DNA from: Streptomyces sp. NBC_00094
Lineage (GTDB): Bacteria > Actinomycetota > Actinomycetes > Streptomycetales > Streptomycetaceae
Length of the DNA: 64,000 nt
Assembly: GCF_026343125.1 (NCBI RefSeq)
Contig: NZ_JAPEMB010000001.1
Coordinates: forward strand, 744,001-808,000
Direction of reading: 5' to 3'
The notes under the pieces are model-generated. The model made no database searches. It saw nothing but the letters and a program-made list of their open reading frames with translations, and was not told where the DNA came from. Each line of letters starts with the position of its first letter. Within the stretch, counting starts at the first letter, position 1. Shown here piece after piece: positions 19,457 to 40,007 of this stretch. Position numbers and translations under genes: made by a program.

Positions 19457-20242
19457 ATGCTTTTCCGACTGCTGGGGCCTGTGAGGATCGCGGGCGGTGC
19501 CGAGACGCAGTCGGCAGCCCGCCGCGCGCTGCTCACCGCGCTGCTCCTGCGCCGGGGACAGTTCGTCGGCATGGGCGAGCTGACCGAGCTGTTGTGGGAC
19601 GACCCGCCGAGCTCGGCGGTGGCCAACATCAGGAGCCACCTCACCGGGCTCCGCCGCGGCCTGGACTCCGCACAGCCGGGACTGAGCAAGCGACTGACCA
19701 CCAGCCGCGGCGCGGAGACCGGGTACGCCCTCGGCGTCGACGCGGACGAACTCGATCTGTCCTGCTTCCTGAAGCTCGCCCGGCAGGGCAAGGAACTGCT
19801 CGCCGCGGGCGACCACCGGGCCGCGGTCGGCCCCCTGGACGAGGCCCTCGCCCTGTGGCGCGGCCCGTTCGGCCAACGGCTTCCGGCCACCCGGTGGTTC
19901 CACGCGCATACCGTGGGCCTCAGCAACACCCGTTTCGAGGCCTGCCAGGACTTCTTCACCGCCTGCCTGCTGACCCATCGGACCGAGATGCTGTCGTACC
20001 GCATCGAGACCGTGCTGGCCGAGGCCCCCTACCGGCAGCGGCTGTGGCAGTTACTCGCCGCCACCTACTGCGCGCAGGGCGACGTGGCCGGCGCGCTGGG
20101 CGTGATCGAGCGATGTCGGACCGTCTTCGCCGACGAACTGGGCCTGGACGTCCCTCCCGGCGTCGAGGCCATCCGGGCCGCCGCGCTCACCTGGGACACG
20201 GAGCGGGCGCACCGCCTGGTGGCCGAGATGGCGCGCCAGTGA
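19457..20242 (+). CDS. SARP-family activator
   Basis: A 261-residue Streptomyces antibiotic regulatory protein. The N-terminus (FRLLGPVRIAGG, ARRALLTALLLRRGQFVGMG, ELTELLWDDPPSSAVANIRS) is the OmpR-like winged helix; the remainder is the BTAD tetratricopeptide-like domain (LALWRGPFGQ, YRQRLWQLLAATYCAQGDVA, RTVFADELGLDVPP). Small SARPs like this activate antibiotic cluster promoters by binding direct repeats and RNA polymerase. It sits at the edge of the lantibiotic genes, so it is the most likely activator of the pathway. It ends in a GTGA overlap with the membrane-protein gene at 20239. Confidence 0.92.
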   Translation: MLFRLLGPVRIAGGAETQSAARRALLTALLLRRGQFVGMGELTELLWDDPPSSAVANIRSHLTGLRRGLDSAQPGLSKRLTTSRGAETGYALGVDADELDLSCFLKLARQGKELLAAGDHRAAVGPLDEALALWRGPFGQRLPATRWFHAHTVGLSNTRFEACQDFFTACLLTHRTEMLSYRIETVLAEAPYRQRLWQLLAATYCAQGDVAGALGVIERCRTVFADELGLDVPPGVEAIRAAALTWDTERAHRLVAEMARQ

Positions 20243-20802
20243 CGGCGGGCATCCGGCCGGCGGGGGCTCGGGTCAGACGGCGACTTCGGTCGCTCGCGGT
20301 AGGGGAACTGGTCAACGTCCCGTTGCAGACGGCCATCTGGTTCGGCGTGGTCGGTGTGCCGGCGACGGCCGCCAACCTCTTCGGGTTCGCACTGGTCACG
20401 CTGCTCCTGCTGGAAGGCGCCGCGTACTGGACGGTCAAGCTCCGTGCCCTGTCCGCCGGTAGCGGCGCGCCGCTACCCGGGGCGGCGGTGTTCGCCGTCG
20501 CTCGGGTGGTCAACCTGGTGCTGCTCGGGCTCGGCGTGCCGCTCACCGTTCTCGCGGTGGCCGACGCCCCCGGGACCGGGAGCATCCCAGGCCTGCTCTT
20601 CACGCTCTTCGCCGTCCTGGAGCACGTCAACTATTTTCATACCCAGCTGATGTACGACACTCCCGAGGACCGGCGCAGCCGCCGCAGGAACGGGCGGCGC
20701 CGGGCACATCTGGCCCGTGACCTGGAGCGGGCTCGGAAGCTCGAGGCCGGGCAACCATCCGCCGATGAGGTCAGTCGCCCTGACGACTCAGGCGCACCGT
20801 GA
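20239..20802 (+). CDS. SARP-coupled integral membrane protein
   Basis: The GTG at 20239 overlaps the SARP stop (GTGA). The 187-residue product has about four membrane helices: VPLQTAIWFGVVGVPATAAN with LFGFALVTLLLLEGAAYWTV, AAVFAVARVVNLVLLGLGVP, and GLLFTLFAVLEHVNYFH. The C-terminus is a charged, Arg-rich tail (RRRNGRRRAHLARDLERARK). I do not recognise the family. Translational coupling to a pathway-type activator suggests a role in the lantibiotic programme, possibly immunity or lipid handling, but this is inference. It converges with the oxidoreductase gene at 20812 across a shared hairpin. Confidence 0.75.
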   Translation: MTAGIRPAGARVRRRLRSLAVGELVNVPLQTAIWFGVVGVPATAANLFGFALVTLLLLEGAAYWTVKLRALSAGSGAPLPGAAVFAVARVVNLVLLGLGVPLTVLAVADAPGTGSIPGLLFTLFAVLEHVNYFHTQLMYDTPEDRRSRRRNGRRRAHLARDLERARKLEAGQPSADEVSRPDDSGAP

Positions 20803-20821
20803 CCGGCCCGGTCACGGTGCG
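20793..20821. terminator. Convergent terminator hairpin
   Basis: Fourteen-base perfect arms (20793-20806 and 20808-20821, CGCACCGTGACCGG) nearly touch at the centre. The site overlaps the stops of the plus-strand membrane gene (20802) and the minus-strand oxidoreductase (20812), so it can end both transcripts, including the long lantibiotic operon. Confidence 0.8.
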
Positions 20822-21768
20822 GCCTTCAGAATCTCGTAGAGGTCGGACGCGGCGGCCCGGGGTCCGTGCACCGCGCCGACCCCGGTGACGTTGAGGACCA
20901 CCTCGTCCACGCCGAGCGCCCGGTAGGCGTCCAGCCGCTGGTGGATCTCCTCGGCCGTCCCGTAGAGGAAGATCCCGCCGTCCACCAGGGCGCGGACGTC
21001 GTCGGGTCCGCCGTCGCCGGTGACCTGGATCCCGGCCCGCCGCAGGACGGCCTGGTAGTGGGGGAACTGGATGTGCCCTCCGCAGGTCGCCCGCAGCAGT
21101 TTCGCCATGTCCCGGTCGGGGCCGGCCAGTGCCACCGGAACATAGGCGGTGACCTTGACCGGCTGCTCCGGACGCCGCTCCTTCGCGCTCCGCAGAGCCG
21201 GGATCAGGAACTCCTCGAGGTACGCCGCCGAGGCCATCCAGGTGATGGCCACATCGGCGAGTTCTCCCGCGAGTTCGGCCATCCGCTCCCGCAGGACGCC
21301 GAGGCCCAGCGACACCTCCGGCTTGTGGAACGGCATGAGCTGCGCCTTGGCGGAGAAGATCTCCCCCTCGCGGTCGCTGATCCCGCCGTCCAGCAGGTCC
21401 CGGACGATGGTGACGTACTCCCGGCAGGCGGTGAGCTGACTGGGGTAGGGCCGTCCCATGGCGCAGGTCTGCGCGGCGAGCGAGCCCGGGCCGTAGCCGG
21501 CCACCACCTCGTGCCCGGTGGCCAGCGCCACGGACCGGGCCTCGATCGCCGCGTTGTACGGCGAGCGGTAGGGCATCAGCGACACCCCGAACCCGGCGGG
21601 CACCCTGATTCCGGAGCCGGCCAACCAGCTCACGATCTGATGGCTGTCCAGGACGAGACCCTGGCCCTGCCACAGCCGGGCCGCGCCACCCCATTTGACG
21701 AGATTGGCGAAGGGGATCACCTGCTCGGGGCGGGTGGCGTTGACGGGGAGGAGGATCGAGTGCCGCAT
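20812..21768 (-). CDS. LLM-class F420-type oxidoreductase, candidate LanJ
   Basis: The 318-residue luciferase-like protein has SILLPVNATRPEQVIPFANL, LVKWGGAARLWQGQGLVLDS, the conserved VALATGHEVVAGYGPG and PYPSQLTACREYVTIVRDLL with GGIS, and the barrel end GTAEEIHQRLDAYRALGVDE. Proteins of this type use F420 or flavin. Homologues in lanthipeptide clusters (termed LanJC) reduce dehydroalanine to D-Ala. It is the last gene of the minus-strand lantibiotic run, 47 bases after lanM-beta and in the same direction. Lacticin 3147, whose alpha peptide this cluster's alpha strongly resembles, contains D-Ala made by a different reductase, LtnJ. The role here is inferred from context. Confidence 0.75.
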   Translation of the reverse strand: MRHSILLPVNATRPEQVIPFANLVKWGGAARLWQGQGLVLDSHQIVSWLAGSGIRVPAGFGVSLMPYRSPYNAAIEARSVALATGHEVVAGYGPGSLAAQTCAMGRPYPSQLTACREYVTIVRDLLDGGISDREGEIFSAKAQLMPFHKPEVSLGLGVLRERMAELAGELADVAITWMASAAYLEEFLIPALRSAKERRPEQPVKVTAYVPVALAGPDRDMAKLLRATCGGHIQFPHYQAVLRRAGIQVTGDGGPDDVRALVDGGIFLYGTAEEIHQRLDAYRALGVDEVVLNVTGVGAVHGPRAAASDLYEILKAAP

Positions 21769-21815
21769 CCCGGCAGCCCTTTCGACGAGTGGTGGAGCGG
21801 ATGACAGGCGGGCGG

Positions 21816-24635
21816 TCAGCTCCGGGAAGGCGCCGACAGTTCCAGCGGGAGGCGCAGACCGTCCGGGTCCGCGCCGCTGAGCAGGGCATCGACCATCAGG
21901 TCGGTGTCACCCACGCCGGCCCAGCCGAGCATGTATCCGATCAGTGAGGTCCGGCCGGCCGCGCCGGTGAAGTAGCCGTCCTCGCGGATCCGGCCGAGGA
22001 CCTCGGTCTGATGGACGGCGGCCCGCTCGAACAGGTCCGGTCGTCCCAGGGTGCGGCCCGCGCCGATCAGGCACTGGACGACGCCGCTGCTGCCGTGGCA
22101 GACGGAGAGGTCCACCGCGCGGCCGGGCGCCAGGGCGGTCGCCCGGCCGACCAGATCGGCCAGCCGGGACTCGGTCAGCCAGTCCTCCCGGCCCGCCGCG
22201 GCGAGGATCTCCGAGCCGGCCAGCAGGAGGCCGGCAGCGCCCTTGCACCAGCCGTGCTCCGCCGGGACGCCGTCCCGCTCCCAGCGGCCGATCAGCCAGT
22301 CCGCCGCCTCCTTGGCGGTGCGCTCCAGTCCCAGGACGGATCCGGTCCGGGCGGCCGCCCAGCGCAGTCCCAGTTCGCCGTGGGCCAGGTCCGACCAGTG
22401 GGTGTCCCGCTCCCTGCCCAGGTGGGACAGGGTCAGGTCGGTGAGCCGCTCGACCGTCGTGGCGTCGGCGGGGAAGGAGGAGCCGTCGCGGCGGAGACGG
22501 TCGAGCAGGACCATCAGCAGCCCGGCCGGGCCGTTGGAGAGGTCGGTCTCCAGCACGCCTTCCGCCGCGCGGTCCTGGAGGGCCTGGAGCAGGCCGGCCA
22601 GCCGGGCGGACGCGGTCTCCGGGTCCTCGGGGCGGACCAGCAGAAGCGAGGCGGCCCCCGTGAACACCGACTCGGGGCGCTGCAGCAGCGCCTCGCCGTA
22701 CTCGGCGAGCAGGGCGGTGAGCCCCCGGTCGGCGCTGCCGGCCGGACCGGCCAGGCTCTCGTCGCGGGCGGCGGCACGGTTGAGGAAGGAGACCACGCCG
22801 GCCGAGTCGTGGAAGGAGACGAAGTTGCCCGGGGTGATGGTGGAGGCGTCGCGGTCCGGGCCGATGCCGCCGACCCATCCGCACTCCTCTTGCCCGCCGG
22901 AAGCGGTGACCGGCACCCGCACCTCGGCGATCCGGCCGGCGATCGCCCGCCACCAGGTGCCGGGACGGGCCTCGGCCAGCAGGTGCCCCCCGAAGACCCC
23001 GGAGGCCGAGAGCCCGCCGGGCGTGTCCTCGCCGCACAGCTCGCCGAAGCACTCCTCCAGCAGGAAGTGGTGGTAGGCGTCGGTGCGGGCCGCGTTGTGG
23101 GCGACGCCGCGCCGGGCGAAGTCCAGCGCGGTCGCCGAATACACCCCGGGTGTCGACCCGTTGACCGTGCCGAGCGCGTCGGAGTCGCCCCGGGTGACGA
23201 AGTACGGCACGTTGCCGAGGTGCAGCGAGGCGCGCTCCGCGTCCTCCGCGAAGCGCTGCGCATCCGGGGACAGGTAGTCCTGGTGCATCTTCAGGAGTCC
23301 GAACAGCCGCTCGGCCTCCTTGGGGTCCACCAGGTACTTCGGGTGGGTGGAGGCGTCGATGAAGCGACCGTAGATCATGGTGGAGCGCAGCAGCAGCCGC
23401 ACCGGCACCCCGGGGTGGGCCTCCAGGACGCGGGTGACGACGCCGTCCCGCAGAGCCGTCAGGGCCGCACGGCAGCCGGCCAGGATGGCGTCGAACCACT
23501 CGGTGGCGATCAGGTGCGTCTCGCCCAGCCGGGGCACGTTGTCGCCCTGCCGGTAGTTGAAAGGCTCCCGTGACACGGCGATGGCGTCCGTTGCCGGGTC
23601 GCGGATCACGGCGCTGGTCATGGACGACGGCTGGTCGCCCGCCACGCCGACGCCCGCCATGATGAAGTCGACCGGCGAGGTCGGGTTCACCATCGGCACC
23701 AGCATCGTGGAGGCGACGGACAGCTTGGTGTGGTTCATCAGCGCGTCGGGGAGCGACTCGTCGCCCACCCCGGCGTCCGGCCGGAGCATGGTCTCGGTGT
23801 CGATGACGCACGGGTGCTCGCCGCAGGCCAGCAGGTTCTCGTCGTGCAGGTCGGTGGCACCGATGGAGCCGAACAGCACCGCCAGCGCGCCGATCCGGTA
23901 GAAGTAGCGGTCGGGCTGGTCCGCCTGTTCCATGGCGGCCGGCACGGTGAACTCCTGCCAGCCGTGCGTGCCCACGGTGAACGACCGGGGGACGCAGCGG
24001 GACAGCGGGTGCTCCAGGTACGGGGCGACCGCCCGGTACAGGTCGCGGACGAAGTCGTCCGCGGTGAGCGGCCGCGGCTTGAACACCAGCCGGGTTCCGT
24101 TGGCCAGGTGGAGGATGTGTACCTGACGGTTGTCGTTGTGCAGGTCGGAGCCGCTGGGTGAGATCGCGGACAGCAGCCGGCCGTCGTCGCCCGGCTCGCC
24201 GAGCAGTCCGGCATCCGCCAGCAGCGGGTGGTCGTCGGCGAAGGCGGTGAGGAACTCGCGGTAGGCGTCCAGGGAGTGGGACAGCATCGCGGTCAGTCGC
24301 GACCGCAGCACCGGGTACTTCTCCAGCAGGGCGTCCGGGGTGCCGGGCTCCTCCAGACGGGCCGTGAAGCGGCGCAGGGCGGTGTCGCCGCCGGACTCCA
24401 TCGGCAGGCCCAGCTGCTCGCGGAAGGCGTGGAACTCGCCGATGAGTATCCGGTAGGACTGCGTCTCCACCGTTTTCAGCAGGGCCTCGTGGGCCTGGTC
24501 CAGCACGCTGTCGCGGCGGTCCGGGACGGCAGCCCGCAGCAACGGCTCGCGCAGCTCCTTCTCGACCGCGGAGCGGGGGACCACATGGGAGTAGAAGGGG
24601 AGGAAGGCCTTGATGGCCACCATGCTCTCGCTCAT
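21816..24635 (-). CDS. lanM2: LanM lanthionine synthetase for the beta peptide
   Basis: The 939-residue class II synthetase has an N-terminal DUF4135 dehydratase (about 80-560): VFKPRPLTADDFVRDLYRAV, GSIGATDLHDENLLACGEHP and CVIDTETMLRPD show the kinase-like lipid-kinase fold active site with His, Asp and Asn. The C-terminal LanC cyclase (about 600-939) carries the zinc ligands in WCKG (Cys797) and CHG (Cys846, His847). The enzyme dehydrates Ser/Thr by phosphorylation and then forms thioether rings. Its ATG at 24635 overlaps the stop of the C39 exporter gene upstream (ATGA), so they are coupled. It lies next to the beta precursor, suggesting it works on beta. Confidence 0.93.
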   Translation of the reverse strand: MSESMVAIKAFLPFYSHVVPRSAVEKELREPLLRAAVPDRRDSVLDQAHEALLKTVETQSYRILIGEFHAFREQLGLPMESGGDTALRRFTARLEEPGTPDALLEKYPVLRSRLTAMLSHSLDAYREFLTAFADDHPLLADAGLLGEPGDDGRLLSAISPSGSDLHNDNRQVHILHLANGTRLVFKPRPLTADDFVRDLYRAVAPYLEHPLSRCVPRSFTVGTHGWQEFTVPAAMEQADQPDRYFYRIGALAVLFGSIGATDLHDENLLACGEHPCVIDTETMLRPDAGVGDESLPDALMNHTKLSVASTMLVPMVNPTSPVDFIMAGVGVAGDQPSSMTSAVIRDPATDAIAVSREPFNYRQGDNVPRLGETHLIATEWFDAILAGCRAALTALRDGVVTRVLEAHPGVPVRLLLRSTMIYGRFIDASTHPKYLVDPKEAERLFGLLKMHQDYLSPDAQRFAEDAERASLHLGNVPYFVTRGDSDALGTVNGSTPGVYSATALDFARRGVAHNAARTDAYHHFLLEECFGELCGEDTPGGLSASGVFGGHLLAEARPGTWWRAIAGRIAEVRVPVTASGGQEECGWVGGIGPDRDASTITPGNFVSFHDSAGVVSFLNRAAARDESLAGPAGSADRGLTALLAEYGEALLQRPESVFTGAASLLLVRPEDPETASARLAGLLQALQDRAAEGVLETDLSNGPAGLLMVLLDRLRRDGSSFPADATTVERLTDLTLSHLGRERDTHWSDLAHGELGLRWAAARTGSVLGLERTAKEAADWLIGRWERDGVPAEHGWCKGAAGLLLAGSEILAAAGREDWLTESRLADLVGRATALAPGRAVDLSVCHGSSGVVQCLIGAGRTLGRPDLFERAAVHQTEVLGRIREDGYFTGAAGRTSLIGYMLGWAGVGDTDLMVDALLSGADPDGLRLPLELSAPSRS

Positions 24636-26836
24636 GCCCCGGCACCTTCCACCAGCAGTTCGGCCGTCCGGCCGGCCCCATCGGCTGTCGCCGCGTACAG
24701 GTCCCGGTACACGCTGCCTCCGTCCATGAGTTCCGAATGTGTTCCTTGCTCGACGATCCGCCCCTGGTCGAACACGTAGATGAGGTCGGCGGACTCGATC
24801 GTCGACAGGCGGTGAGCGATGACGATCTGGGTGGCGCCGATTCCCTCGATCAGCCGGGTCACCCGGCGTTCGTTGACCGTGTCCAGGGAGGCGGTGGCCT
24901 CGTCCATGACGAGGATGGACGGCCGTTGCAGGAGGGTGCGCACGATCGCCAGCCGCTGCCGCTGCCCCCCGGAGAAGTTGGAGCCCATCTCGGCGACCAG
25001 GGTCTGCAGACCCATCGGCAGGTCGTCGAGGAAGTCCAGGATGCCGGCCTCGCGGCAGAACTCCCGGACGGTCTCCTCGGGGATGTCCTGGCCCAGGGTG
25101 AGGTTCTCCAGGATCGACCGGTTGTGCAGGTGGACCTCCTGCGGGATGTAGCCGATCACTCGGCGCAGGGAGTCCCGGTCGTACTCGCCGGCGTCCAGAC
25201 CGCCGAAGCGGACCGAGCCGGAGGTGGGTTCGTGCAGGCCGCAGACGATCCGGGCCAGGGTGCTCTTGCCCGACCCGGAGGCGCCCACCAGGGCGACCCG
25301 GGCGCCGGCCGGGATGTCCATGGTGACGTCGCGGACCACCGGTTCGCTGTGCCGGGTGTAGCGGAAGGACACCTGGTCCAGTTGGACGGAAGCGGACGCC
25401 AGCTCCTTGCGGTCGCCGCCGGGGCCCTCGGGCTCGGTGCGGGTGATGTCGCTCAGACGGGACATGTAGCGGCTGGTCTCGGTGAACTCCGCGTACGCCT
25501 GGAACACCGAGGTGGAGATCGCGAAGTAGGTGGCGGCGACGGTCTGCACCGCGATCGCCCCGCCGATGCTGATGGTTCCCCTGCCGACGAAGTAGAGGCT
25601 GGCGAGCAGCAGGAGCAGCGGCCCGAACATCTGGATGGTGGCCGCCACACCGGTCACCTGGCCCTGCTGCAGCCGCATCCGCGCTTTCATCGCGTCGAGG
25701 GAGGCGGCGTAGGTCTCGCGCCAGGTGTCCAGGTACTGGTCGGCGTAGCCCCCCATCTTGATGGTCGGGATGGAGACGATGGCGTCCAGCTGCAGCGACT
25801 GGCTCCTGCCCAGGTGGGTGATCTCCATGTCGACCGCCTCGAGCACCCGCAGTCGGGTGGCGGCCAGATAGCCGGCGTTGGCCAGCACCAGGGCGAGCGC
25901 CATCAGCCCGAGCCGCCATTCCACGTGCAGCAGGTAGCCGCTGACGCAGACCATGGTGCCGACGTCCAGCACGCCCTGGGCGACCCGGGAGGAGAGCATG
26001 TCGCGGACGGCGTTGACGCTGCCGAGCCGGAAGAGCAGCTCGCCGGGCTGACGGGTGGTGAAGAACCGGTACGGCAGCAACAGCAGCCGGGTGAAGGCGT
26101 GGTCCATCAGATGCCGCCCGAGCGCCGACACCAGCGAGGACAGCAGCAGGATCCTCAGGAGATGCAGCAGGTAGTAGCCGACGGCGGCGCCGACCACCAT
26201 GCCGATGACCCACAGATGGTCGCCGAGCTCCGTCCAGCCGGAGAACCGGTCCACGGACCATTCGGTGAGCAGCGGGATCCCCAGCACCGCGGCGTAGGCG
26301 GCCAGCGACAGCGCGCCGACACCGGCCATCCGGCGCCCCGCGCCCTCGGGCAGCAGGGGCATCGTCCGCCAGTCGGCGAATGGCCGGCGGCGCAGCCGGC
26401 GGAACGCGGGCCCGGGCTCGGCGGTGAGGACCACGCCGCTGAAGTGCCGGGCGAGTTCGTCCGAGGTCATCCGGCGGCGGCCGACGGCCGGGTCCATGAC
26501 GACGGCCTGCTCGCCGTCGAAGCTCTCCAGGACCACGAAGTGGTGATCGTCCCAGAAAAGGATCACGGGCGAGTCGAACCGGGTGAGCGCTGCGATGCTC
26601 CGGGCGCTCAGCAGCCGGCTCCGCATGCCGCGGGACTCCAGGAACCGCGCGAGCTGCCGGGCGCTCAGGCCGTCCCGTCCCGCGTCCATGTCCTCGCGGA
26701 CCTCGGAGATGCCTTCGTCCCGCCCGTAGTAACGGAGCAGGGACACGCAGCAGCACAGACCGCACTCGGTCTGGGCGACCTGGGTGACGGCCGGCACGCG
26801 TCGCGCGGTCCGACGTGATTCCGGGCGAGCGCCCAT
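24632..26836 (-). CDS. lanT2: C39-peptidase ABC exporter (LanT) of the beta half
   Basis: The 734-residue bifunctional transporter opens with a C39 peptidase: QVAQTECGLCCC has the catalytic Cys25, FWDDHHFVVLE the His (about 99), and VMDPAVGRR the Asp. Then an ABC exporter membrane domain (LSLAAYAAVLGIPLLTEWSV, GVLDVGTMVCVSGYLLHV, GPLLLLLASLYFVGRGT) and an ATPase with GASGSGKST, NFSGGQRQRLAI and LVMDEATASLD follow. It cuts the leader after a double-Gly-type motif and exports the peptide. The beta precursor ends its leader in YGG. The ATG at 26836 has GGAGG about ten bases upstream; an in-frame TTG farther up is less likely. It is coupled to lanM-beta. Confidence 0.93.
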   Translation of the reverse strand: MGARPESRRTARRVPAVTQVAQTECGLCCCVSLLRYYGRDEGISEVREDMDAGRDGLSARQLARFLESRGMRSRLLSARSIAALTRFDSPVILFWDDHHFVVLESFDGEQAVVMDPAVGRRRMTSDELARHFSGVVLTAEPGPAFRRLRRRPFADWRTMPLLPEGAGRRMAGVGALSLAAYAAVLGIPLLTEWSVDRFSGWTELGDHLWVIGMVVGAAVGYYLLHLLRILLLSSLVSALGRHLMDHAFTRLLLLPYRFFTTRQPGELLFRLGSVNAVRDMLSSRVAQGVLDVGTMVCVSGYLLHVEWRLGLMALALVLANAGYLAATRLRVLEAVDMEITHLGRSQSLQLDAIVSIPTIKMGGYADQYLDTWRETYAASLDAMKARMRLQQGQVTGVAATIQMFGPLLLLLASLYFVGRGTISIGGAIAVQTVAATYFAISTSVFQAYAEFTETSRYMSRLSDITRTEPEGPGGDRKELASASVQLDQVSFRYTRHSEPVVRDVTMDIPAGARVALVGASGSGKSTLARIVCGLHEPTSGSVRFGGLDAGEYDRDSLRRVIGYIPQEVHLHNRSILENLTLGQDIPEETVREFCREAGILDFLDDLPMGLQTLVAEMGSNFSGGQRQRLAIVRTLLQRPSILVMDEATASLDTVNERRVTRLIEGIGATQIVIAHRLSTIESADLIYVFDQGRIVEQGTHSELMDGGSVYRDLYAATADGAGRTAELLVEGAGA

Positions 26837-27031
26837 GGCTACCGCACCTCCGGGTTGTTGGACGTCGGGCAAGGAGAGGGGCTTGCATTGACGGGCCGTC
26901 GGACGGGGCGGGAGACCGGGAAGTCCGGCGCGGGCCGTCGGACCTCGGTCCGGCCCACCCCCACCCCGTCCGTCGTGACCGACGCGGCGGTCCGGTTCAG
27001 CGAGCCGCGCTTATCAGAGCCGTCAAGGACT

Positions 27032-27205
27032 TCAGCACTGGCTGGTGCACTTGGTGGTCGGGCAGGCGGAGGCGGACACCAGGGTCGCCACGGCGGTGAC
27101 GATGGCGCAGCTCCAGGTCGTACCGCCGTACACGTCCGCCTCGCCCATCTCGACGAGCTCGAACTCGTCGTACCCGCCGAGGACGTCGGCCTGCATCTTC
27201 TCCAT
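27032..27205 (-). CDS. lanA2: Lantibiotic beta-peptide precursor
   Basis: The 57-residue precursor starts at an ATG with AGGAGA six bases upstream. The leader (MEKMQADVLGGYDEFELVEM then GEADVYGG) is acidic and ends in a double-Gly protease site. The 29-residue core begins TTWSCAIVTAVATLVSASA and ends CPTTKCTSQC. The C-terminal ten residues match haloduracin beta exactly, and the opening TTW is shared too; lacticin 3147 A2 also has TT at its start and CPTTKCT near its end. The core has four Cys and ten Ser/Thr. In this family the beta peptide inserts after alpha has bound lipid II and forms the pore. It has its own promoter region between the terminator at 27380-27407 and the start. Confidence 0.95.
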   Translation of the reverse strand: MEKMQADVLGGYDEFELVEMGEADVYGGTTWSCAIVTAVATLVSASACPTTKCTSQC

Positions 27206-27379
27206 GGTCTTCTCCTTTTCGAGTTCTCCCGACACGCGCCCGGAACTCGTCTGGCGAAATACGGAACGCGTACCCTCCGCCTTCGGAGGACGCCTCCCAG
27301 TCTGTCCGCCCTCAATTCGTCGAACGCATAGACCTGGCGCCTTTGTACGCACACGCTGAAATGCGCCGGAAAACGCGCC

Positions 27380-27407
27380 GGGCCCCCACACATTCGCGTG
27401 GGGGCCC
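27380..27407. terminator. Hairpin ending the immunity-gene transcript
   Basis: Ten-base perfect arms (27380-27389 and 27398-27407; GGGCCCCCAC and complement) lie between the end of the ABC permease gene and the beta precursor, both on the minus strand. It can end the transcript coming from the alpha side, so that the beta precursor has its own transcription start. Confidence 0.75.
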
Positions 27408-27436
27408 ATTCACGGGGTGTGAGGTGCGTCGACCCC

Positions 27437-28174
27437 TCAGACATCCCGCCGCACAGTCATCCCCTGCCCGAGCGCCACCGCCCCCACCGTCCACACGGTG
27501 AGCACGCCAAGACCGGACCACGCTCCCAGCACCTCGTCGCCCCCTGAGCCGCGCAGCACCATCCCCCCCGCCACATCCGGCAGGAACCGTGCCACCTCCC
27601 CGACCCCCGGTATGTTGCTCAGGATCGTGGAGAGCATGAAGAACAGCGGAAGCAGAATGGACAGCGCCGCCGCCCCCGACCGCAGCAGCGTCGCCACTCC
27701 CATGGAGAACGCCACCAGCAGCATCGTGTAGAGCACCGCCCCCGCCACATGCCCCGCCGTGGCGAGTCCCGTCGGCGCCCGGTGCTCCCCGATACCGCTC
27801 TGCACGATCAGGAAGGCCGGCACGACGCCCACCACCGCCAGCACCCCGCTGACCAGGCTGACCAGTCCCACCTTGGCGTAGTAGAACCGGGCCCGGTCGG
27901 GGACGGCCAGCAGACTGCTCCTGATCGACCCCGACGCGTACTCGCCCGTCACCGCGAGAATCCCCATGATCACCAGAACGATCATCCCGAGCGGTACGGC
28001 CGACAGGCCGAGCCCGACCGGGTCGAACCCCGGCGCCGTCAGCTGCCTTTCGCCGGGAACCATCCCGTAGACGAAGGCCAGGCCGATCATCAGGACGAGA
28101 TAAACCGCCGAGGACCATTTCGGGGACCGCAGCGTCGTCAACTTGACCCATTCCGCGGACACGGCGTGCTTCAT
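27437..28174 (-). CDS. ABC-2 permease, probable lantibiotic immunity
   Basis: The 245-residue permease has six likely helices, among them VYLVLMIGLAFVYGMVPGE, MIVLVIMGILAVTGEYASGS, VSLVSGVLAVVGVVPAFLIV, AALSILLPLFFMLSTILSNI and GLGVLTVWTVGAVALGQG. The EYASGSIRSSLLAVP loop is typical of ABC-2 permeases. Its ATG shares one base with the stop of the ATPase gene (TGATG), so the pair is coupled. In lantibiotic clusters such pairs (LanEF) remove the peptide from the producer's membrane. It could also act in export of something else; the position between the two synthetase blocks favours immunity. Confidence 0.85.
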   Translation of the reverse strand: MKHAVSAEWVKLTTLRSPKWSSAVYLVLMIGLAFVYGMVPGERQLTAPGFDPVGLGLSAVPLGMIVLVIMGILAVTGEYASGSIRSSLLAVPDRARFYYAKVGLVSLVSGVLAVVGVVPAFLIVQSGIGEHRAPTGLATAGHVAGAVLYTMLLVAFSMGVATLLRSGAAALSILLPLFFMLSTILSNIPGVGEVARFLPDVAGGMVLRGSGGDEVLGAWSGLGVLTVWTVGAVALGQGMTVRRDV

Positions 28175-29091
28175 CAGAACCCTCCCGTCGAAGCCCGGTA
28201 TTCAGCGTGTTCCTGGGTCAGCTTCATAAACGCCTCCTCCAGCGAACCGGCGGAAGCGGTCAGCTCGAAAACGGCAATGTTCTCCGCGCTCGCGACAAGC
28301 CCGACCTTCTCCACGGACGCCCCGCTCACCGCCAGCGTCGCGTCGTCCTGCCGCACGGACTCGATGCCCTGCTCCCGCAGTGCCCGCCGCATCCCCTCCG
28401 GATCGGCCACCCGGGCCAACACGGTCCTGTCCGAGTGCGCGGCGATGAACGCGTCCACGGGGGTGTCCGCGAGCAGCCGGCCCCGGGCGACGACCACCAG
28501 ATGGTCGGCGGTCACCGCCATCTCGTTCATCAGGTGGGAGGAGACCAGCACCGTCCGCCCCTCCCCGGCCAGTCCCCGCATCAGGTCCCGGATCCACCGG
28601 ACACCCTCGGGGTCGAGCCCGTTGACCGGCTCGTCGAACAGCAACACCTCGGGGTCGCCGAGCAGCGCCGCCGCGACGCCGAGCCGCTGCCCCATGCCGA
28701 GGGAGAATCCGCGCACCCTCTGCCGGGCCACCGCAAGCAGGCCGACCCGGTCCAGGACCTCGTCGGCCCGGGTGGCGGGCAGGCCGTGGGAGGCGGCCAG
28801 CACCCGCAGGTGGTTCCGGGCACTGCGGCCCGGGTGCACGGCCCTGGTGTCGAGCAGCGCTCCCACCCGGGTCAGCGGGCGCGCCAGGCTCCGGTAGGGG
28901 ACGCCGAAGACGGTGGCCCGGCCCGCGGTGGGCTCGTCCAGACCGAGGATCATGCGCAGGGTGGTGGACTTGCCGGCGCCGTTGGGGCCGAGGAATCCGG
29001 TGACCTTCCCCGGGGTCACGGAGAACGACAGACCGTCCACGGCGACCTTCGCGCCGTACCGTTTGGTGAGGTTCTCGACCTCGATCATCAC
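28174..29091 (-). CDS. ABC ATPase of the probable immunity exporter
   Basis: The 305-residue ATPase has Walker A GPNGAGKSTT, the signature FSLGMGQRLGVA in which LGMGQ replaces the usual LSGGQ (common in this drug/bacteriocin ABC group), and Walker B VLLFDEPVNGLDPEG with the switch His in VSSHLMNEM. About 80 C-terminal residues follow, as in bacitracin/lantibiotic immunity ATPases. It begins MMIEVENLTKRYG at 29091, 52 bases after the stop of the upstream exporter gene (29144), and is coupled to the permease by a TGATG overlap. Confidence 0.9.
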   Translation of the reverse strand: MMIEVENLTKRYGAKVAVDGLSFSVTPGKVTGFLGPNGAGKSTTLRMILGLDEPTAGRATVFGVPYRSLARPLTRVGALLDTRAVHPGRSARNHLRVLAASHGLPATRADEVLDRVGLLAVARQRVRGFSLGMGQRLGVAAALLGDPEVLLFDEPVNGLDPEGVRWIRDLMRGLAGEGRTVLVSSHLMNEMAVTADHLVVVARGRLLADTPVDAFIAAHSDRTVLARVADPEGMRRALREQGIESVRQDDATLAVSGASVEKVGLVASAENIAVFELTASAGSLEEAFMKLTQEHAEYRASTGGF

Positions 29092-29143
29092 AGCACCTCT
29101 CGTCCATGAACAGTCGTGACCGGACCGCCATGCCCACCGGCCC

Positions 29144-31285
29144 TCATACGGCCCCCGCCACCGGCTCCGCGTAAAGCCCCGCGTACACCCCGCCCAGGGC
29201 CAGCAACTCCTCGTGCGTCCCCCGCTCCACGATCCGGCCGCGGTCCAGGACGTGGATCAGGTCCGCGTCCTGGATCGTCGCCAGCCGGTGCGCGATGACG
29301 ATCTGCGTGGCGCCGGTCTCCGCGATGATCCGGGAGACCCGCCGCTCGTTGGCGGTGTCCAGCGAGGCGGTCGCCTCGTCCAGGACGATGACCCGCGGCC
29401 GCTGCAGCAGTGTCCGCACGATGGCCAGCCGCTGCCGCTGCCCGCCGGAGAAGTTGGAGCCCATCTCGGACACCAGGGTCCGCAGCCCCATCGGCAGTTC
29501 CTCGACGAAGTCGAGGATCCCCACGGCCGCGCAGTACTCCCGGACCGTGGCCTCGTCGATGTCCTGGCCCAGGGTCAGGTTCTCGAGGATGGTCCGGTTG
29601 TGCAGGTGGACCTCCTGCGGGACGTACCCGATCTGCCCGCGCAGGAAGTCGGTCCGGTAGGCGCTCATGGGGTGGCCGCAGAACTCCACCGCCCCTCCGG
29701 TCGGCTGGTGGAGCCCGCAGACGACGCGCCCGACGGTGGACTTGCCCGAACCCGACGCGCCGACGAACGCCACCTTCGCGCCGGCCGGGATCTCCAGCGA
29801 CAGGTCCTCCAGCACCGGCCTGCTGTGCCGGGTGTAGCGGAACGACACCTCCCTCAGCCGTATCGAGGTGTCGTGGAGTTCCGTGAGGGGCCCGCCCTCC
29901 GGCTCGCTCTCGTGCGCCGTGATGTCGCTCAGCCGGCTCACGTAGCGGGAGGTCTCGGTGATCTCCGTCAGCATCTGGAAGACGGACGTGCTCAGGGCGA
30001 AGAAGGTGCCCGCCACGGCCTGCACGGCGATGGCCGAGCCGATGGTCACCGTCCCCCGCGACACGAAGTGCAGGCCGGCCAGCAGCAGTGCCAGCGGGCC
30101 GAACATCTGCGTGGTGGCGGCGATTCCGGAGATCCAGCCCTGCTGGATCCGCATCCGGGTGCGCATCGCGTCCAGCGAGGCGCTGTAGGTCGCCTCCCAT
30201 TCGTCGGCGAACCGGCCGGCGTAGCCGCCCATCTTGATGGTGGGGACGGACACGATGGCGTCGAGCTGTGTGGACTGGGAGCGGGAGAGCAGCGCGAGCT
30301 CGGTGTCCGTCACCTCCTTCACCCGGTGCCGGCTCAGCCACAGGAAGCCGCCGTTCAGCAGGAACAGCGCGAGCGCCAGAAAGCCGATGCGCCACTCGGT
30401 GACGAACAGGTAGACGCCGATGCAGGCCAGGGTCCCCACGTCCAGGACGCCCTGGGCGATCCGCGAGGAGAGCAGGTCCCGGACGCTGTTGACGGTGTTC
30501 AGGCGGAACAGCAGCTCGCCGGGCTGCCGGGTGGCGAAGAACTTGAAGGGCAGGGAGAGCAGTCTCCTGAAGACATGGCTCATCAGGTGATGGCCCGTCA
30601 CGGCGATCAGCCCCGCCAGCGCGGCGGTGCGCAGCATCCACAGCAGCAGGTAGCCGATCGCGGCCGCCGTCACCGCCCCCGCGATCAGCCCCGTCTGGGA
30701 CAGGTCGCTCCAGGCGTCGTCCCGGTCGACGGCCCATTTGGTCAGCGCCGGTATGCCCAGCACAGCCGCGTAGGAGCCCAGCGACAGCAGGGCGACCAGG
30801 GCGATCCGGCGGCCTGCCCGGGCCGGGACCAGCGGCAGCGACCGCCAGTGCCGGAAAGCGGGGAGGGACTGCCGGGTGAAGTCCGGGCCGGGGGAGGCCG
30901 CGATCACCACCTGGGAGAAGCCGGCCTCCAGTTCGTCGCGGGTGAGGCGCTTGCGGCCCACGGCCGGGTCCATCACCCAGGCCGTCGTGCCGTCGAAGCG
31001 CTCCAGGACCAGGAAGTGGTAGTCCTCCCAGAAGAGGATCACCGGCTCCGTGAAGCCCCGCAGGGCCTCCACGCTCCGGGCCCGGAACGCCTTGACCTCC
31101 ATGCCCCTCGAGCGCAGGAAGTCCGCGAGCTGCTTGGCACCGAGACCGTCCCGGCCGGCCTCCAGGTCCTCCCGCACGGTCCGGAAGTCCTCGGTGCGGC
31201 CGTGGTACCCCATCACCGCGACGCAGCAGCACAGCCCGCACTCCGTCTGGGTGACCTGGGTGACGGAGGGAACCCGGAGGCCCAT
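29144..31285 (-). CDS. lanT1: C39-peptidase ABC exporter (LanT) of the alpha half
   Basis: The 713-residue bifunctional exporter starts at an ATG that shares a base with the lanM-alpha stop (TGATG). The C39 domain has the catalytic Cys16 in QTECGLCCC, His in WEDYHFLVLE, and Asp in MDPAVGRKR. The transmembrane domain includes LLSLGSYAAVLGIPALTKWA and LACIGVYLFVTEWRIGFLAL; the ATPase has GASGSGKST, NFSGGQRQRLAI and IVLDEATASLD. It is clearly paralogous to the exporter at 24632 through long identical runs (for example GYAxxxxxxWExTYxASLDAM). It presumably cleaves the alpha leader, which ends YGA, and secretes alpha. Confidence 0.93.
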   Translation of the reverse strand: MGLRVPSVTQVTQTECGLCCCVAVMGYHGRTEDFRTVREDLEAGRDGLGAKQLADFLRSRGMEVKAFRARSVEALRGFTEPVILFWEDYHFLVLERFDGTTAWVMDPAVGRKRLTRDELEAGFSQVVIAASPGPDFTRQSLPAFRHWRSLPLVPARAGRRIALVALLSLGSYAAVLGIPALTKWAVDRDDAWSDLSQTGLIAGAVTAAAIGYLLLWMLRTAALAGLIAVTGHHLMSHVFRRLLSLPFKFFATRQPGELLFRLNTVNSVRDLLSSRIAQGVLDVGTLACIGVYLFVTEWRIGFLALALFLLNGGFLWLSRHRVKEVTDTELALLSRSQSTQLDAIVSVPTIKMGGYAGRFADEWEATYSASLDAMRTRMRIQQGWISGIAATTQMFGPLALLLAGLHFVSRGTVTIGSAIAVQAVAGTFFALSTSVFQMLTEITETSRYVSRLSDITAHESEPEGGPLTELHDTSIRLREVSFRYTRHSRPVLEDLSLEIPAGAKVAFVGASGSGKSTVGRVVCGLHQPTGGAVEFCGHPMSAYRTDFLRGQIGYVPQEVHLHNRTILENLTLGQDIDEATVREYCAAVGILDFVEELPMGLRTLVSEMGSNFSGGQRQRLAIVRTLLQRPRVIVLDEATASLDTANERRVSRIIAETGATQIVIAHRLATIQDADLIHVLDRGRIVERGTHEELLALGGVYAGLYAEPVAGAV

Positions 31286-34224
31286 CAGAGGGCTCCGTGC
31301 CAGATCGGCGACACCCGGGGCCGCGCGTCGTCGAGGCGGCCGAGCAGGTGCAGCAGCACACCCGAGGAGCCCACCATGGCGCTGTCGGTGTGCGCGTAGC
31401 GGGAGCCGGTGTCGGCGAGCTTCTCCGCGATCACGTCGGGTCCCAGCCGGCGCGCCTCGACGGCGGCGGCCCGCTCCAGCAGCTCCTGGTCGTCGCCGGC
31501 GATCCGGCGGACCACGTCGATGTTGCCGAGGTCGCCGTGGCACCAGGTGAGGTTGCGTCCGAAGCCCTGCCGGAAGGTGTTGTCGAGGGCCGCCTCCAGG
31601 CGCTCGGCGGCCCGTTCGTCCGCTGTCCGGGCGGTCACGGCGGACAGCGCCATGGCGATGCCGGCGGCGCCGTGGCACCAGCCGGTCGAGAACCGGCCCG
31701 GGAAGGCGGAGTTGGTGGACCAGTTCCGCTCCTGGGGCACGTAGAAGGACTCCAGGCGGTCCGTCAGCACACCGATGGCGGTGTCGACGCGGCGTCCGGG
31801 GAGGTCGGGCAGCGTGGCGAGGGCGTACAGGACTCCCGCGACGCCGTGCGCGAAGCCCGACTGCTCCCACCAGGAGCCCGACGGTTCCTCCACATGGCCC
31901 AGCAGCCGGCCGGTGAGCCCGTCCAGGGCGTCGAGGCTGTGGTCGCCGCCGATCGAGGCGATCATCGTGGCGATCCCGGAGATCCCGGAGATCACCTCCG
32001 GGGTGTTCTCGGGGCCGAGCTGCTCCACGACCAGCGGCACGGCGTCCTGTGCCGCCTTGACCCAGCCCGGCTCCCGCAGGATTCGCCCGGCCTCGCACAG
32101 AGCGAACAGCAGGCCGGTGGTTCCCGTGTAGGCGCCGGCACCGCTCTGCCGGATGCTGCGCAGCTCGTAGACGCCGTCGGTGAGGATGCCGGCGCTGCGC
32201 TCGAAGACCTGGCGCGCCACCCGCTCGTAGCGTTCGTCGCCGAAGTGGGCCGCGGCCGCGGCCAGGGCCAGCGCGGGGCCGGTGCGTCCGGTGTACAGGT
32301 CGTACCCCAGCACGCCGGAGGGCCAGGGCCGGGCGGCCTGCGCGGAGGCCAGCGGGCCGATCCATGTGGCGGGGAGATGACCGTACTGGTCGGGGAGGCT
32401 GCCCGCGGTCAGGGCGTCGGCCAGCGACCGGGCGAGCCGCTCCAGGCCGGTGCGCTCTCCGGTGGAGGCCCGGCCGTTCCAGGCGGTCCCGCCGGAGAGG
32501 TGGTTGTCGGGGAAGCGGGAGCAGAAGGCCGAGTGGAGCAGCCGTAGCTGCCGCCTCACCGCCTGCTCGTCGAGCGCCGCGGCCTTGGCCAGCGCCCGGG
32601 AGAGCGGGGTGCGGTCGATCCGGACGCCGGTGTCCTCGCCGTCGCAGTCGTGGACGGTGGTGCCGGTGGCGGGCACGGTGAAGTAGGGGACGTCGCGTTC
32701 GGCCATCTGCCGCAGTTCCGAGCCGACCAGCCTGCGGTCGGAAAACCGGGAGGGGATGGCGATCCTGTGGAGCAGGGCCTGGGCGAGCGCCGGGTCGGCC
32801 ATCGCGGCGGCGGAGGCTGCCATCCGCAGGATCTGCGCGTACTGCGACGTCGGGTTGTGGATGTAGCGGAGGCGCATGGCCGGAGCGAGCTCCTCCAGCA
32901 GGGTGGTCCACCAGGAGGGCCGGCGCATCACCGCCTCGCAGACCTGCCGGAACCCGTCGGCCATCTGTCCGGCGAGCCCGTGGATCTCCTGTTCGGTGCT
33001 CTCCCGGACCACGGTGGAGCGCTGCTCGGACGTGCGGGCCTGGAGGTGCACCCGGATCCGGTCGGTGAAGGGGTCCTCGAAGACCATGGTCTTGAAGGGG
33101 GAGACGCCCTGGTTGTCGCCGCCGAGGAAACCGAGGTCGACGTAGCCGGAGTCCTCGTTCTTGCCGGCCAGGACCAACGGGAGGATCCCGATGCCGTAGA
33201 CGCTGCGGCCGATCTCGTCGTACGCGTTGCCCTCGGCCTCCGGGGTGGGGCCGGTGTGCACCCGGGAGGGGTGCAGCAGCGTCTCAAGGTCGATGGCCAC
33301 CGGGCCCAGGCGGGTGGGCAGGATGTTCTCGAAGTGCATGTCCCGCGCGTCCAGCAGGTAGAACACGGCGGCCAACTGGCCGCAGGCCCGCATGAACGGC
33401 ACGCTGAATCCGCCGATGTCCTCCTGTTCGACGTACTCGACGTACCCGTACCCGTCGCGCACCAGGGTGCGGGCGGCGGGCAGTGCGCAGTCGGCCTCCG
33501 CGTTGACGCGCTCGACGACGGTCTCGAAGGCCGCCTCACAGGAGACGTCGCGGGGCTTGTAGACCAGGCGGGCCCCCGAGGCGAACGTCAGGATGCTCAC
33601 CGCCCTGCCGTGGGCGTGCGCGTCGCCGTCGGCCCGGCCGATGGACAGCAGCGGGTCGCCGGGGGCGATGCGGGAGAACCGGAACACCTCGTCCCGGTCG
33701 GCGTGGAGGCGCCGGACCAGTTCGCGCGCGGTCTCGCGGGCGTTGCGCACCACATGGCCGGCCGCGGAGCGGAGCACCGGGAACGGCTCCAGGGCGTCTC
33801 TCCACGCCCGGGTGACGAAGTCCTGGTAGCGCTCGTGCGGGGTCGCCCCCCGCAACAGCCCGTCGGTGGAGGCCTTGTTGACCGCGGCGACCAATGTACG
33901 GGTCGCCACGTCGCGCAGCCGGGCCTCGGCCCGGCCGAGTACCTGGAGCGTGAAGGCGTCCAGGTCGGCGACGGCCTCCGTGAGGTCCTCGGGGAGGAGC
34001 CTGCCGGCAGCCGGCAGTGCCAGCTGCCGGATCACGCGCTGGAACGGGTACTCCTCCGGCTCCAGCGACCAGGCGAGCGCGGCCGGCGAGGGGGCCTCTG
34101 GAGCGACGTCGGACGGAGCCGAGAGCTTGACGTGGACGGCGGGCGCGAAAACGCCGAGGGGCTCGATGGTTTCGCGGATTTCGACGCTGTCGAGTTCTGG
34201 GTAAAGATTCGCGGGCGAGATCAA
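31285..34224 (-). CDS. lanM1: LanM lanthionine synthetase for the alpha peptide
   Basis: The 979-residue class II synthetase has a DUF4135 dehydratase (RLVYKPRDVSCEAAFETVV, LDARDMHFENILPTRLG, VAIDLETLLHPS) and a LanC cyclase. Zinc ligands are seen in GWCHGAAG (Cys850) and TWCHGDLGN (Cys895, His896). It shares the architecture but not close sequence with the beta-side LanM, so each probably serves one precursor. The alpha precursor lies 100 bases upstream on the same strand, separated by a large hairpin (34269-34305). No ATG fits; a TTG at 34224 with GGGAG upstream is the best start, beginning MISPANLYPELDSVEI. The gene ends coupled to lanT1. Confidence 0.92.
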   Translation of the reverse strand: MISPANLYPELDSVEIRETIEPLGVFAPAVHVKLSAPSDVAPEAPSPAALAWSLEPEEYPFQRVIRQLALPAAGRLLPEDLTEAVADLDAFTLQVLGRAEARLRDVATRTLVAAVNKASTDGLLRGATPHERYQDFVTRAWRDALEPFPVLRSAAGHVVRNARETARELVRRLHADRDEVFRFSRIAPGDPLLSIGRADGDAHAHGRAVSILTFASGARLVYKPRDVSCEAAFETVVERVNAEADCALPAARTLVRDGYGYVEYVEQEDIGGFSVPFMRACGQLAAVFYLLDARDMHFENILPTRLGPVAIDLETLLHPSRVHTGPTPEAEGNAYDEIGRSVYGIGILPLVLAGKNEDSGYVDLGFLGGDNQGVSPFKTMVFEDPFTDRIRVHLQARTSEQRSTVVRESTEQEIHGLAGQMADGFRQVCEAVMRRPSWWTTLLEELAPAMRLRYIHNPTSQYAQILRMAASAAAMADPALAQALLHRIAIPSRFSDRRLVGSELRQMAERDVPYFTVPATGTTVHDCDGEDTGVRIDRTPLSRALAKAAALDEQAVRRQLRLLHSAFCSRFPDNHLSGGTAWNGRASTGERTGLERLARSLADALTAGSLPDQYGHLPATWIGPLASAQAARPWPSGVLGYDLYTGRTGPALALAAAAAHFGDERYERVARQVFERSAGILTDGVYELRSIRQSGAGAYTGTTGLLFALCEAGRILREPGWVKAAQDAVPLVVEQLGPENTPEVISGISGIATMIASIGGDHSLDALDGLTGRLLGHVEEPSGSWWEQSGFAHGVAGVLYALATLPDLPGRRVDTAIGVLTDRLESFYVPQERNWSTNSAFPGRFSTGWCHGAAGIAMALSAVTARTADERAAERLEAALDNTFRQGFGRNLTWCHGDLGNIDVVRRIAGDDQELLERAAAVEARRLGPDVIAEKLADTGSRYAHTDSAMVGSSGVLLHLLGRLDDARPRVSPIWHGAL

Positions 34225-34268
34225 TGCTCCGGCTCCCTGCGCGGAAGATGATAGATTTCCACGTTGCG

Positions 34269-34305
34269 CCGGGGGCGGGGAGCATGAGCCGCTCCCCGCC
34301 CCCGG
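34269..34305. terminator. Hairpin between the alpha precursor and lanM1
   Basis: Perfect 15-base arms (34269-34283 and 34291-34305; CCGGGGGCGGGGAGC) around a seven-base loop lie between lanA-alpha and lanM1. In lantibiotic operons a hairpin just after lanA commonly ends most transcripts, giving much precursor mRNA and less synthetase mRNA. Its position and strength fit that role. Confidence 0.8.
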
Positions 34306-34325
34306 TCCATGCCCAGCCTTCGGGC

Positions 34326-34496
34326 TCAGTTGCAGTTGGGCTGGCACTCCTTGGTCAGCGTGCACCAGCCGCCCTGGTTGCCGAGGAAGTCGGACAGCGA
34401 GAACGTGTTGGTCGAACACGCGCCATAGGCGACGCCGTCGAAGTCCTGCTCCGCGATCTCCTCGATGAGCGAGATGTCACCGTCGAAGTTGTTCAT
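34326..34496 (-). CDS. lanA1: Lantibiotic alpha-peptide precursor
   Basis: This 56-residue gene is short and easily missed. The leader (MNNFDGDISLIEEIAEQDF then DGVAYGA) is acidic and ends in a Gly-Ala cleavage motif. The 30-residue core opens CSTNTFSLSD, identical to the first ten residues of lacticin 3147 A1, passes through FLGNQGGW and ends CTLTKECQPNCN. CTLTKEC is the mersacidin-like lipid II motif with the essential Glu; the ending PNCN resembles haloduracin alpha (PSCN). Core length is 30, as in LtnA1. Four Cys are present. It stands first in the run of lanM1, lanT1 and the ABC-2 pair. The ribosome site is weak (GGATG). Confidence 0.96.
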   Translation of the reverse strand: MNNFDGDISLIEEIAEQDFDGVAYGACSTNTFSLSDFLGNQGGWCTLTKECQPNCN

Positions 34497-34988
34497 GTGA
34501 ATTCACATCCAATCCGGCCGCATATACCCGATGGGCCATTCTGCGGAAAGATTTCGGCCCATGGCTCGTCGCCCGGCTGAGCGACGAGGGAAAGCTATGC
34601 GCGTCGATAGCCAGTCCACAACCCATCGGTTGCCCGACGGGTCACTGAAATGCGTTTCCCGTGATGCTGCGGGAGCCCCCTGTGACACCGTTGAGCTGCA
34701 GCTTCGATGCCATGTGGCCGAATCCTGCCAGGGCGCTGGCAACTTGGTGCAGTTCATTTCCCGGCGGATTCGTGCGCGGTCGTATGCGCGACCCGATGCA
34801 CTGGATATGCGCGGCGAATAGGGGGCCGAATGCGATCGGCCAATTTCCGCTCGCGATACTTTCGTGGCCGGGGATCGTCCCCGTGACACGGCCGGCCGGT
34901 CCGCGCCCGGCAGGAAGTGATGCACCGCCCGCGGCGCTCCTCGCGCAGGGGATCCCGGGCACCCCGCTTCGCCTTCGCCGTCCCGAGG
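34497..34988. promoter_or_regulatory. Promoter region of the alpha operon
   Basis: Nearly 500 bases without a supported gene; the AT content is higher than around it. An inverted repeat CTCGTCGC/GCGACGAG with an eight-base spacer (34565-34588) lies about 70-90 bases before the alpha precursor ATG, and a TATATG-like box about 30 bases before it could be a -10 element. These elements fit regulator binding. A plus-strand frame from 34531 was considered and rejected. Confidence 0.45.
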
Positions 34989-36469: not shown

Positions 36470-36683
36470 CGAGGTCTGTCACCCAGCGCACCGGCCCGGT
36501 CCGGCGCCGCCAGTATGAGAGGCGCATTGACAGGTGGTCAAGAGCCGCCTAATTTCGCCGCCACAGGACTGTTACTCCCGGGTACGCATTCTCGCCCCGG
36601 TCAGGCTGCACCCCATGTGTGCGCCTCCTTCCCACACGGCCCACGAGCCCCCTCGCACGTCGCGCCCGTATTGGAGTACCCGT

Positions 36684-37640: not shown

Positions 37641-37944
37641 GTAAAACGGGCCTGCCCGAAGTCCCGAAATTGTCATCGGCGTGAGTAGCCGGAACGAATG
37701 CTTGAACGAACACTGATGTTACCCCGCGGTAAGGCCAACGTTTCCGCTTGAACCGGCCGCCACCCTCGGCTGCCTGCCACCGCTGTGTCCGCAGTCCCGT
37801 ACCCCGCAGTACCCGTGCCCGCAGTACACGTACCCGCAGCACCCCGTACGAGCCAGCCCAGCGCTTCATCCCCGGAAGCCCGGCACACCCTCATGCGTAT
37901 CCCCCTACGCATCCCACCCGCAGCCGCCGAGTTGGAGCACCTCT
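37641..37944. other. Intergenic region with degenerate CGCAGTAC repeats
   Basis: A 304-base gap before the glycosyltransferase gene. From about 37789 to 37850 a degenerate unit of about 12 bases built on CCCGCAGTACCC recurs four to five times. The unit could be a regulator binding array or a slippage product. The stretch before it (37660-37730) is AT-richer and is the likely promoter. Confidence 0.5.
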
Positions 37945-39985: not shown

Positions 39986-40007
39986 GCATGCGAAGCGAGG
40001 AACGGTC

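Follow-up and report, generated by a model that had tools for sequence, protein, structure and literature searches.

Gene content of the cluster

The window, a 64,000-nucleotide stretch of the genome of Streptomyces sp. NBC_00094, carries on its minus strand, from 34496 to 20812, the genes for an alpha precursor, LanM-alpha (LanMa), LanT-alpha (LanTa), LanF, LanE, a beta precursor, LanT-beta (LanTb), LanM-beta (LanMb) and LanJ. All of the genes named in the initial annotation (alpha precursor, LanM, C39 exporter, ABC-2 pump, beta precursor, C39 exporter, LanM and LLM reductase) are present on one strand, in the order that it gave and with open frames; there are overlaps of one to four bases between LanMa and LanTa, LanF and LanE, and LanTb and LanMb. 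Its remark that codon use here is GC-rich agrees with the third-position GC of 0.89-0.93 in five genes (LanJ, LanTb, LanE, LanF and LanMa). A 1690-aa frame considered as a LanT-LanM fusion was rejected; its first part crosses LanTb in another frame.

The alpha precursor (34326..34496, 56 aa) would consist of the leader MNNFDGDISLIEEIAEQDFDGVAYGA and the core CSTNTFSLSDFLGNQGGWCTLTKECQPNCN, which contains the motif CTLTKEC, and the beta precursor (27032..27205, 57 aa) of the leader MEKMQADVLGGYDEFELVEMGEADVYGG and the core TTWSCAIVTAVATLVSASACPTTKCTSQC, with the cuts placed at probable GA and GG sites, respectively. Both belong to known two-component families by scores above the Pfam or NCBIfam cut-offs: alpha matches Pfam Lantibiotic_a (PF14867; E 4.2e-10) and the NCBIfam plantaricin C family (NF000539; 51.8 bits, cut-off 29), and beta matches the NCBIfam LchA2/BrtA2 family (NF038161; 71.8 bits, cut-off 26). 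The alpha core had been said to begin like that of lacticin 3147 A1, and the first ten core residues are indeed identical, with A1 read from plasmid pMRC01. In addition, every Ser, Thr and Cys falls at the same position in both cores, each 30 residues long, and the overall identity between alpha and A1 is 57% over 49 residues. The end of the beta core presumably equals that of haloduracin beta. Among the loci examined, relatives of beta were seen only beside alpha.

LanMa (31285..34224) comprises 979 aa when read from TTG, a start that is uncertain; TTG 34224 is the earliest start past the alpha stop, and the homology of relatives extends to it. The TIGR03897 scores were 493.6 bits for LanMa and 318.9 bits for LanMb (21816..24635, 939 aa), with a cut-off of 304 for both. 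LanMa also has DUF4135, LANC_like and the CHG motifs of the cyclase, and motifs of the dehydratase and the zinc-binding cyclase are present in both LanMs, as judged by sequence patterns. With precursor families above their cut-offs and two LanMs that pass TIGR03897, the sequence supports the earlier call of a two-component class II lantibiotic cluster, and the predicted product is almost certainly a two-component lantibiotic. It would be of the birimositide/lacticin 3147 kind, a kind of cluster that is already known.

LanTa (29144..31285, 713 aa) and LanTb (24632..26836, 734 aa) are C39 peptidase-ABC exporters (PF03412, PF00664 and PF00005 in each) and are 64% identical to each other; LanMa and LanMb are 24% identical. 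The C39 Cys, the Asp region and the Walker A/B and signature motifs were found in both LanTs, again with sequence patterns; the C39 histidine pattern had no match in either, and by eye a histidine stands at the expected place. LanF (28174..29088; PF00005) is the putative ATPase of an ABC-2 pump predicted to serve in self-protection, and among the NCBIfam models it comes closest to TIGR03740 (lantibiotic protection ABC ATPase), at 183.7 bits and under the cut-off of 309.75. The LanE-like ABC-2 permease (27437..28174) matches PF12679 at its cut-off (27.2 bits) and has no match among the NCBIfam models. LanJ (20812..21768; PF00296, E 2.4e-23) is a luciferase-like reductase of the LanJC type, the name proposed by Walker et al. 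(PMC7268733), and is predicted to convert Ser-derived dehydroalanine (Dha) to D-Ala. It matches NCBIfam F420-dependent LLM subfamilies below their cut-offs, and these nearest models and the nearest solved structures are F420 enzymes; Walker et al. call the birimositide LLM reductase flavin-dependent (PMC7268733, as far as the available text goes). The cofactor of LanJ could therefore be either F420 or flavin.

Between LanE and beta lies a hairpin of 12 bp with a 4-nt loop (27380..27407), with a fold z of -3.08 for the stretch. The LanE-beta gap measures 216-254 nt in the two-LanT loci described below, and the 12-bp hairpin recurs in 10/10 of them, with paired changes. The hairpin is terminator-like and may mark an operon boundary, a reading that we keep tentative because it has no T-run and is absent from the terminator scan of 20700-35000, which gave two terminator-like sites elsewhere (2.6 expected). 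The promoter scan of the same interval gave 0 promoter-like sites (0.5 expected).

A SARP-type regulator (19457..20242, plus strand; PF03704 BTAD, E 1.8e-26) is convergent with LanJ and is possibly a member of the cluster. SARP relatives follow LanJ in the one-LanT loci L042 and L044 and in L073, where the relative is cut by the end of the stretch; in L072 and L074 they lie at other places close to the cluster. No SARP was found in the stretches of L016, L049 and L070 (that of L016 ends soon past LanJ) or in those of L071, L025, L026 and L027, which are short past LanJ. Adjoining the SARP gene is a convergent pair that by eye appears regulator-like (17274-18071, plus, and 18110-19111, minus). 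The two proteins are about 41% identical over 264 residues, matched no Pfam model above its cut-off and also occur together in L077 and L043.

Further genes were noted in the surroundings. Upstream, at 36534-44321 on the plus strand, are envelope-sugar genes for a PorA-family protein, a glycosyltransferase, a methyltransferase and a 1437-aa AftD-type arabinofuranosyltransferase. Two S8 subtilases (50643-51842, minus, and 55150-58872, plus) are not evidently members of the cluster, and a 1108-aa hybrid histidine kinase (5559-8885, plus) has at least four HAMP stretches, a GAF domain and a response regulator domain. The same genome also encodes a class IV LanL about 21 kb before the window (G000:C1:721699-722733, L002; 1146.6 bits, cut-off 650) and a class III LanKC (G000:C1:7806179-7807066, L003; 648.1 bits, cut-off 575).

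Related loci and known systems

A search with the alpha profile had hits in 14/392 genomes of the genus, 18/394 of the family and 5/394 of the class; these draws overlap, each set of hits counts the window's own genome, and several of the hits are both weak and distant. Pfam Lantibiotic_a was found in 3/100 relatives, the window's own genome included, and with alpha as query a protein search returned 31 sequences. The named collection yielded 20 loci, 19 from Streptomyces and one from Actinoplanes.

In the 29 related loci examined, two LanTs were present in 10 (the window, L008, L009, L015, L043, L069 and L075-L078) and one LanT in 19 (L016-L027, L042, L044, L049, L055, L070, L072 and L074), counted in stretches of at most about 10 kb on each side, several of them ended by contig ends, so that a second LanT farther off would escape the count. 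The initial annotation rightly singled out the two complete LanM-LanT sets; members of this group usually have two LanMs, and it is the second LanT that is the unusual part. One-LanT loci have the order alpha-beta-LanMa-LanT-LanMb-LanJ, with LanFE before or after this series where it was seen. For example, L049 (a plasmid of Streptomyces sp. NBC_01431) and L019 (S. regalis NRRL 3151) have the same families of alpha, beta, two LanMs and LanJ as the window; however, they have a single LanT, and alpha adjoins beta. Two tandem beta precursor genes follow alpha in the one-LanT loci L021, L022, L023 and L072. An additional ABC fragment in L044, 290 residues long, is 35% identical to LanTb, and no LanJ was seen in the L074 stretch. 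Four more distant loci (L045-L047 and L056) and pMRC01 have one LanT each.

Carriers of the cluster include S. exfoliatus NRRL B-2924 and S. wedmorensis NRRL 3426. Both LanTs are open in 10/10 two-LanT loci, LanMb is cut off in 4/10 (L008, L009, L015 and L069), and LanJ was seen in 6/10. Median dN/dS values (NG86) were 0.139 for LanTa, 0.227 for LanTb, 0.228 for LanMa, 0.237 for LanF, 0.246 for LanE, 0.337 for LanMb (6 rows), 0.103 for LanJ (6 rows), 0.117 for alpha and 0.145 for beta; both complete sets are maintained by purifying selection in all ten loci. The upstream flanks of L009, L012 and L013 share long stretches with the window, whereas similarity stops near 34.9 kb in L008, L011, L014, L015 and L043 and near 35.3 kb in L010. 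Since similarity to the window ends at differing flanks, the unit occupies more than one setting.

Among characterized systems, the window resembles birimositide of Streptomyces rimosus WC3908, which, in the available text of Walker et al. (2020, PMC7268733), has an alpha like that of lacticin 3147, a beta from a different family and an LLM reductase, and for which masses and synergy were observed. A lacticin-like alpha, a BrtA2-family beta and an LLM reductase likewise occur together in the window. The window has two LanTs, and it differs from birimositide, known here through BrtM and the published description, in that its LanMb, which is 44% identical to BrtM (P0106), falls outside the BrtM clade, a clade that holds the loci nearest to the window on the alpha side.

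Putative clusters with two LanMs and two precursors in S. hygroscopicus, S. bingchenggensis and S. viridochromogenes were listed in 2014 (PMC3951391), with a gene for a flavin-utilising monooxygenase downstream in S. viridochromogenes. The S. viridochromogenes alpha (P0036) is 64% identical to that of the window. However, in the available text of that paper one LanT is named for each cluster, the one in S. bingchenggensis being fused to a LanM, and the window has two.

Lacticin 3147 (pMRC01, Lactococcus lactis) shares with the window two LanMs and the alpha likeness given above. It has one LanT, and instead of an LLM reductase it has a medium-chain dehydrogenase. In this comparison, with one Firmicutes record, its LanMs share only 28% and 24% identity with those of the window and its LanT 38%. 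The window therefore does not fit a narrow lacticin 3147 family, with a zinc-type LanJA dehydrogenase and one LanT. The LanM identities, together with the long branches of pMRC01, bear out the suggestion of a distinct actinobacterial lineage. Apart from its own reductase, pMRC01 has the gene order of the one-LanT loci, which fits either common ancestry or an old transfer.

Roseocin (S. roseosporus), the contrast drawn originally, is also a two-component lantibiotic of an actinomycete. As it has been described, roseocin has one promiscuous LanM, a conserved leader and an alpha without CTxTxD/EC, and the window, with two LanMs and CTLTKEC, lies outside a family so defined. The contrast in LanM number holds; the nearer comparisons, however, are birimositide (PMC7268733) and the two-LanM Streptomyces clusters (PMC3951391), at least as the available parts of these papers present them. 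A limited literature search, by title and the start of the abstract, found no lantibiotic cluster described as chimeric in origin or as having two LanTs.

Family trees of the two halves

Trees were built with LG+G4 for LanM, LanT and the concatenated proteins and with a mixture model for LanJ and LanF. Loci L016, L049 and L070 served as the birimositide-type rows, and the groups to be compared by the tests reported below were picked once identities had been seen.

On the alpha side, the LanMa and LanTa trees nest the two-LanT loci in a group with L016, L070 and L049, of which L049 is the closest (100/99); with the alpha half concatenated, L049 comes out as sister (100/100). In the LanF tree the two-LanT loci group with L016 and L049 (96/100), the link to L049 alone being less well supported (91/71); here L070 joins other loci, away from the alpha-side group. 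The alpha-side genes of the window therefore fall within the lineage of loci whose LanMb joins BrtM.

The beta side has a different placement. LanMb of L016, L049 and L070 forms a clade that excludes the window (100/99), and in a LanMb tree of 97 rows, the clade with L016, L049 and L070 has 15 members, BrtM among them (100/100), and excludes the eight window-type rows, which make up a separate clade (100/100); the tree does not fix how the main clades are joined. LanJ is sister to that of S. regalis L019 (100/99), and the concatenated beta half joins the window to L019 with support of 85/100 (not starred). Grouping the window with L049 was rejected for LanMb (5.3e-10), LanJ (1.1e-53) and the concatenated beta half (8.6e-58); conversely, grouping it with L019 was rejected for LanMa (9.3e-7) and the concatenated alpha half (6.3e-54). 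For LanMb and LanTb, the best tree puts the window elsewhere than with L019, yet that grouping was not rejected (p 0.25 and 0.35). No switch of affinity was found along the proteins, and an internal mosaic of LanT or LanM was rejected.

These trees give good support to a differing origin of the two halves; they do not settle the beta donor. It could be argued that the window holds a birimositide-type cluster of the ordinary sort: LanT was duplicated in place, the genes were reshuffled afterwards, and both halves have one history. The 64% identity of LanTa and LanTb is in keeping with this, and placing the beta half with all three birimositide-type rows, at the stem of their group, was not rejected for LanMb (p 0.28), LanT (0.31) or the concatenate (0.30) but only for LanJ (0.009). 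However, sisterhood of LanTa and LanTb was rejected (p 7.7e-5), and the tests excluded LanMb, LanJ and the concatenated beta half from the place next to L049 that the alpha half occupies, which makes a single history with duplication improbable.

Origin and predicted working of the cluster

We favor the view, at a probability of about 0.8, that the cluster arose by fusion of two one-LanT clusters, because the genes on its two sides do not share a family tree. Alpha and its neighbours LanM, LanT and LanFE would have come from a birimositide-type cluster that lost beta, LanMb and LanJ; beta with its LanT and LanM, LanJ and perhaps the SARP gene would stem from another cluster, one in which alpha and LanMa were lost. 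The direction and order of events are those that we infer. The SARP gene behind LanJ, as in the one-LanT loci L042 and L044, and the conserved hairpin between the halves also speak for a fusion. No remnants of lost genes were recognised by eye in three gaps (one of them translated in three frames).

A different view is that two independent single-peptide lantibiotic clusters became neighbours by chance and that their peptides do not pair. Each half does have its own precursor, LanM and LanT, and the hairpin lies between the halves. Yet the precursors belong to alpha and beta families known to pair (PMC7268733, in the text available), there is a single pump and a single reductase, and the halves stay together in 10/10 loci even where the upstream flanks differ; chance neighbourhood is consequently very unlikely. 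Recent acquisition of a two-component cluster from a Firmicutes donor, to which the close resemblance of the alpha core to lacticin A1 and the gene order shared by pMRC01 and the one-LanT Streptomyces loci might point, is the least credible account of all, given the low LanM and LanT identities to the one Firmicutes record, the position of the pMRC01 rows on long outgroup branches, the medium-chain dehydrogenase of pMRC01 where the window has an LLM reductase, and the GC-rich codons of the window.

For the fused cluster, we infer the chemistry, the activity and the division of labour between the LanTs as follows. LanMa would dehydrate up to seven Ser/Thr residues of the alpha core and close the rings as in lacticin A1, after which LanTa would cleave behind YGA and export alpha. 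LanMb would likewise dehydrate beta and close its rings, and LanTb would cleave behind GG and export it; LanJ would turn dehydroalanine into D-Ala. The calculated neutral monoisotopic masses are near 3143.3 Da for alpha (7 dehydrations, +2H) and form a series of 2705-2815 Da for beta (5 to 11 dehydrations, with or without +2H), to which an N-terminal 2-oxobutyryl group would add about 1 Da. Outside the cell, alpha may bind lipid II via CTLTKEC and then recruit beta to form pores, while LanFE would protect the producer. Lipid II binding and pore formation are stated for such pairs in the available portions of two papers (PMC7268733 and PMC10027976).

The values for specialisation of the C39 domain were +0.70 to +1.11 sd in three LanTb rows and -0.26 to -0.57 sd in three LanTa rows, relative to a line fitted to 153 pairs drawn from 18 one-LanT rows, the means of those rows spanning -0.86 to +0.63 sd. 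Each LanT may be dedicated to its own peptide; however, we hold the case to be evenly balanced, because one-LanT relatives have a single exporter for the two precursors and the C39 values speak clearly for neither side.

How two peptides that act jointly come to match is a question that two-component lantibiotics raise in general. The cluster described here is likely, though with somewhat less assurance than the fusion itself, to be a natural hybrid, in which a lipid-II-binding alpha and a pore-forming beta came from separate clusters, each with its own synthetase and exporter, and were then retained as one unit across a group of Streptomyces species. Halves of different ancestry would constitute a natural experiment on whether alpha and beta from different clusters work together, and they make it testable whether a C39 exporter tells two leaders apart, with the one-LanT relatives as ready controls for swaps. 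If this reading is true, alpha and beta are evolutionarily exchangeable modules, and a single antibiotic is made in these streptomycetes by two parallel lines of modification and export.
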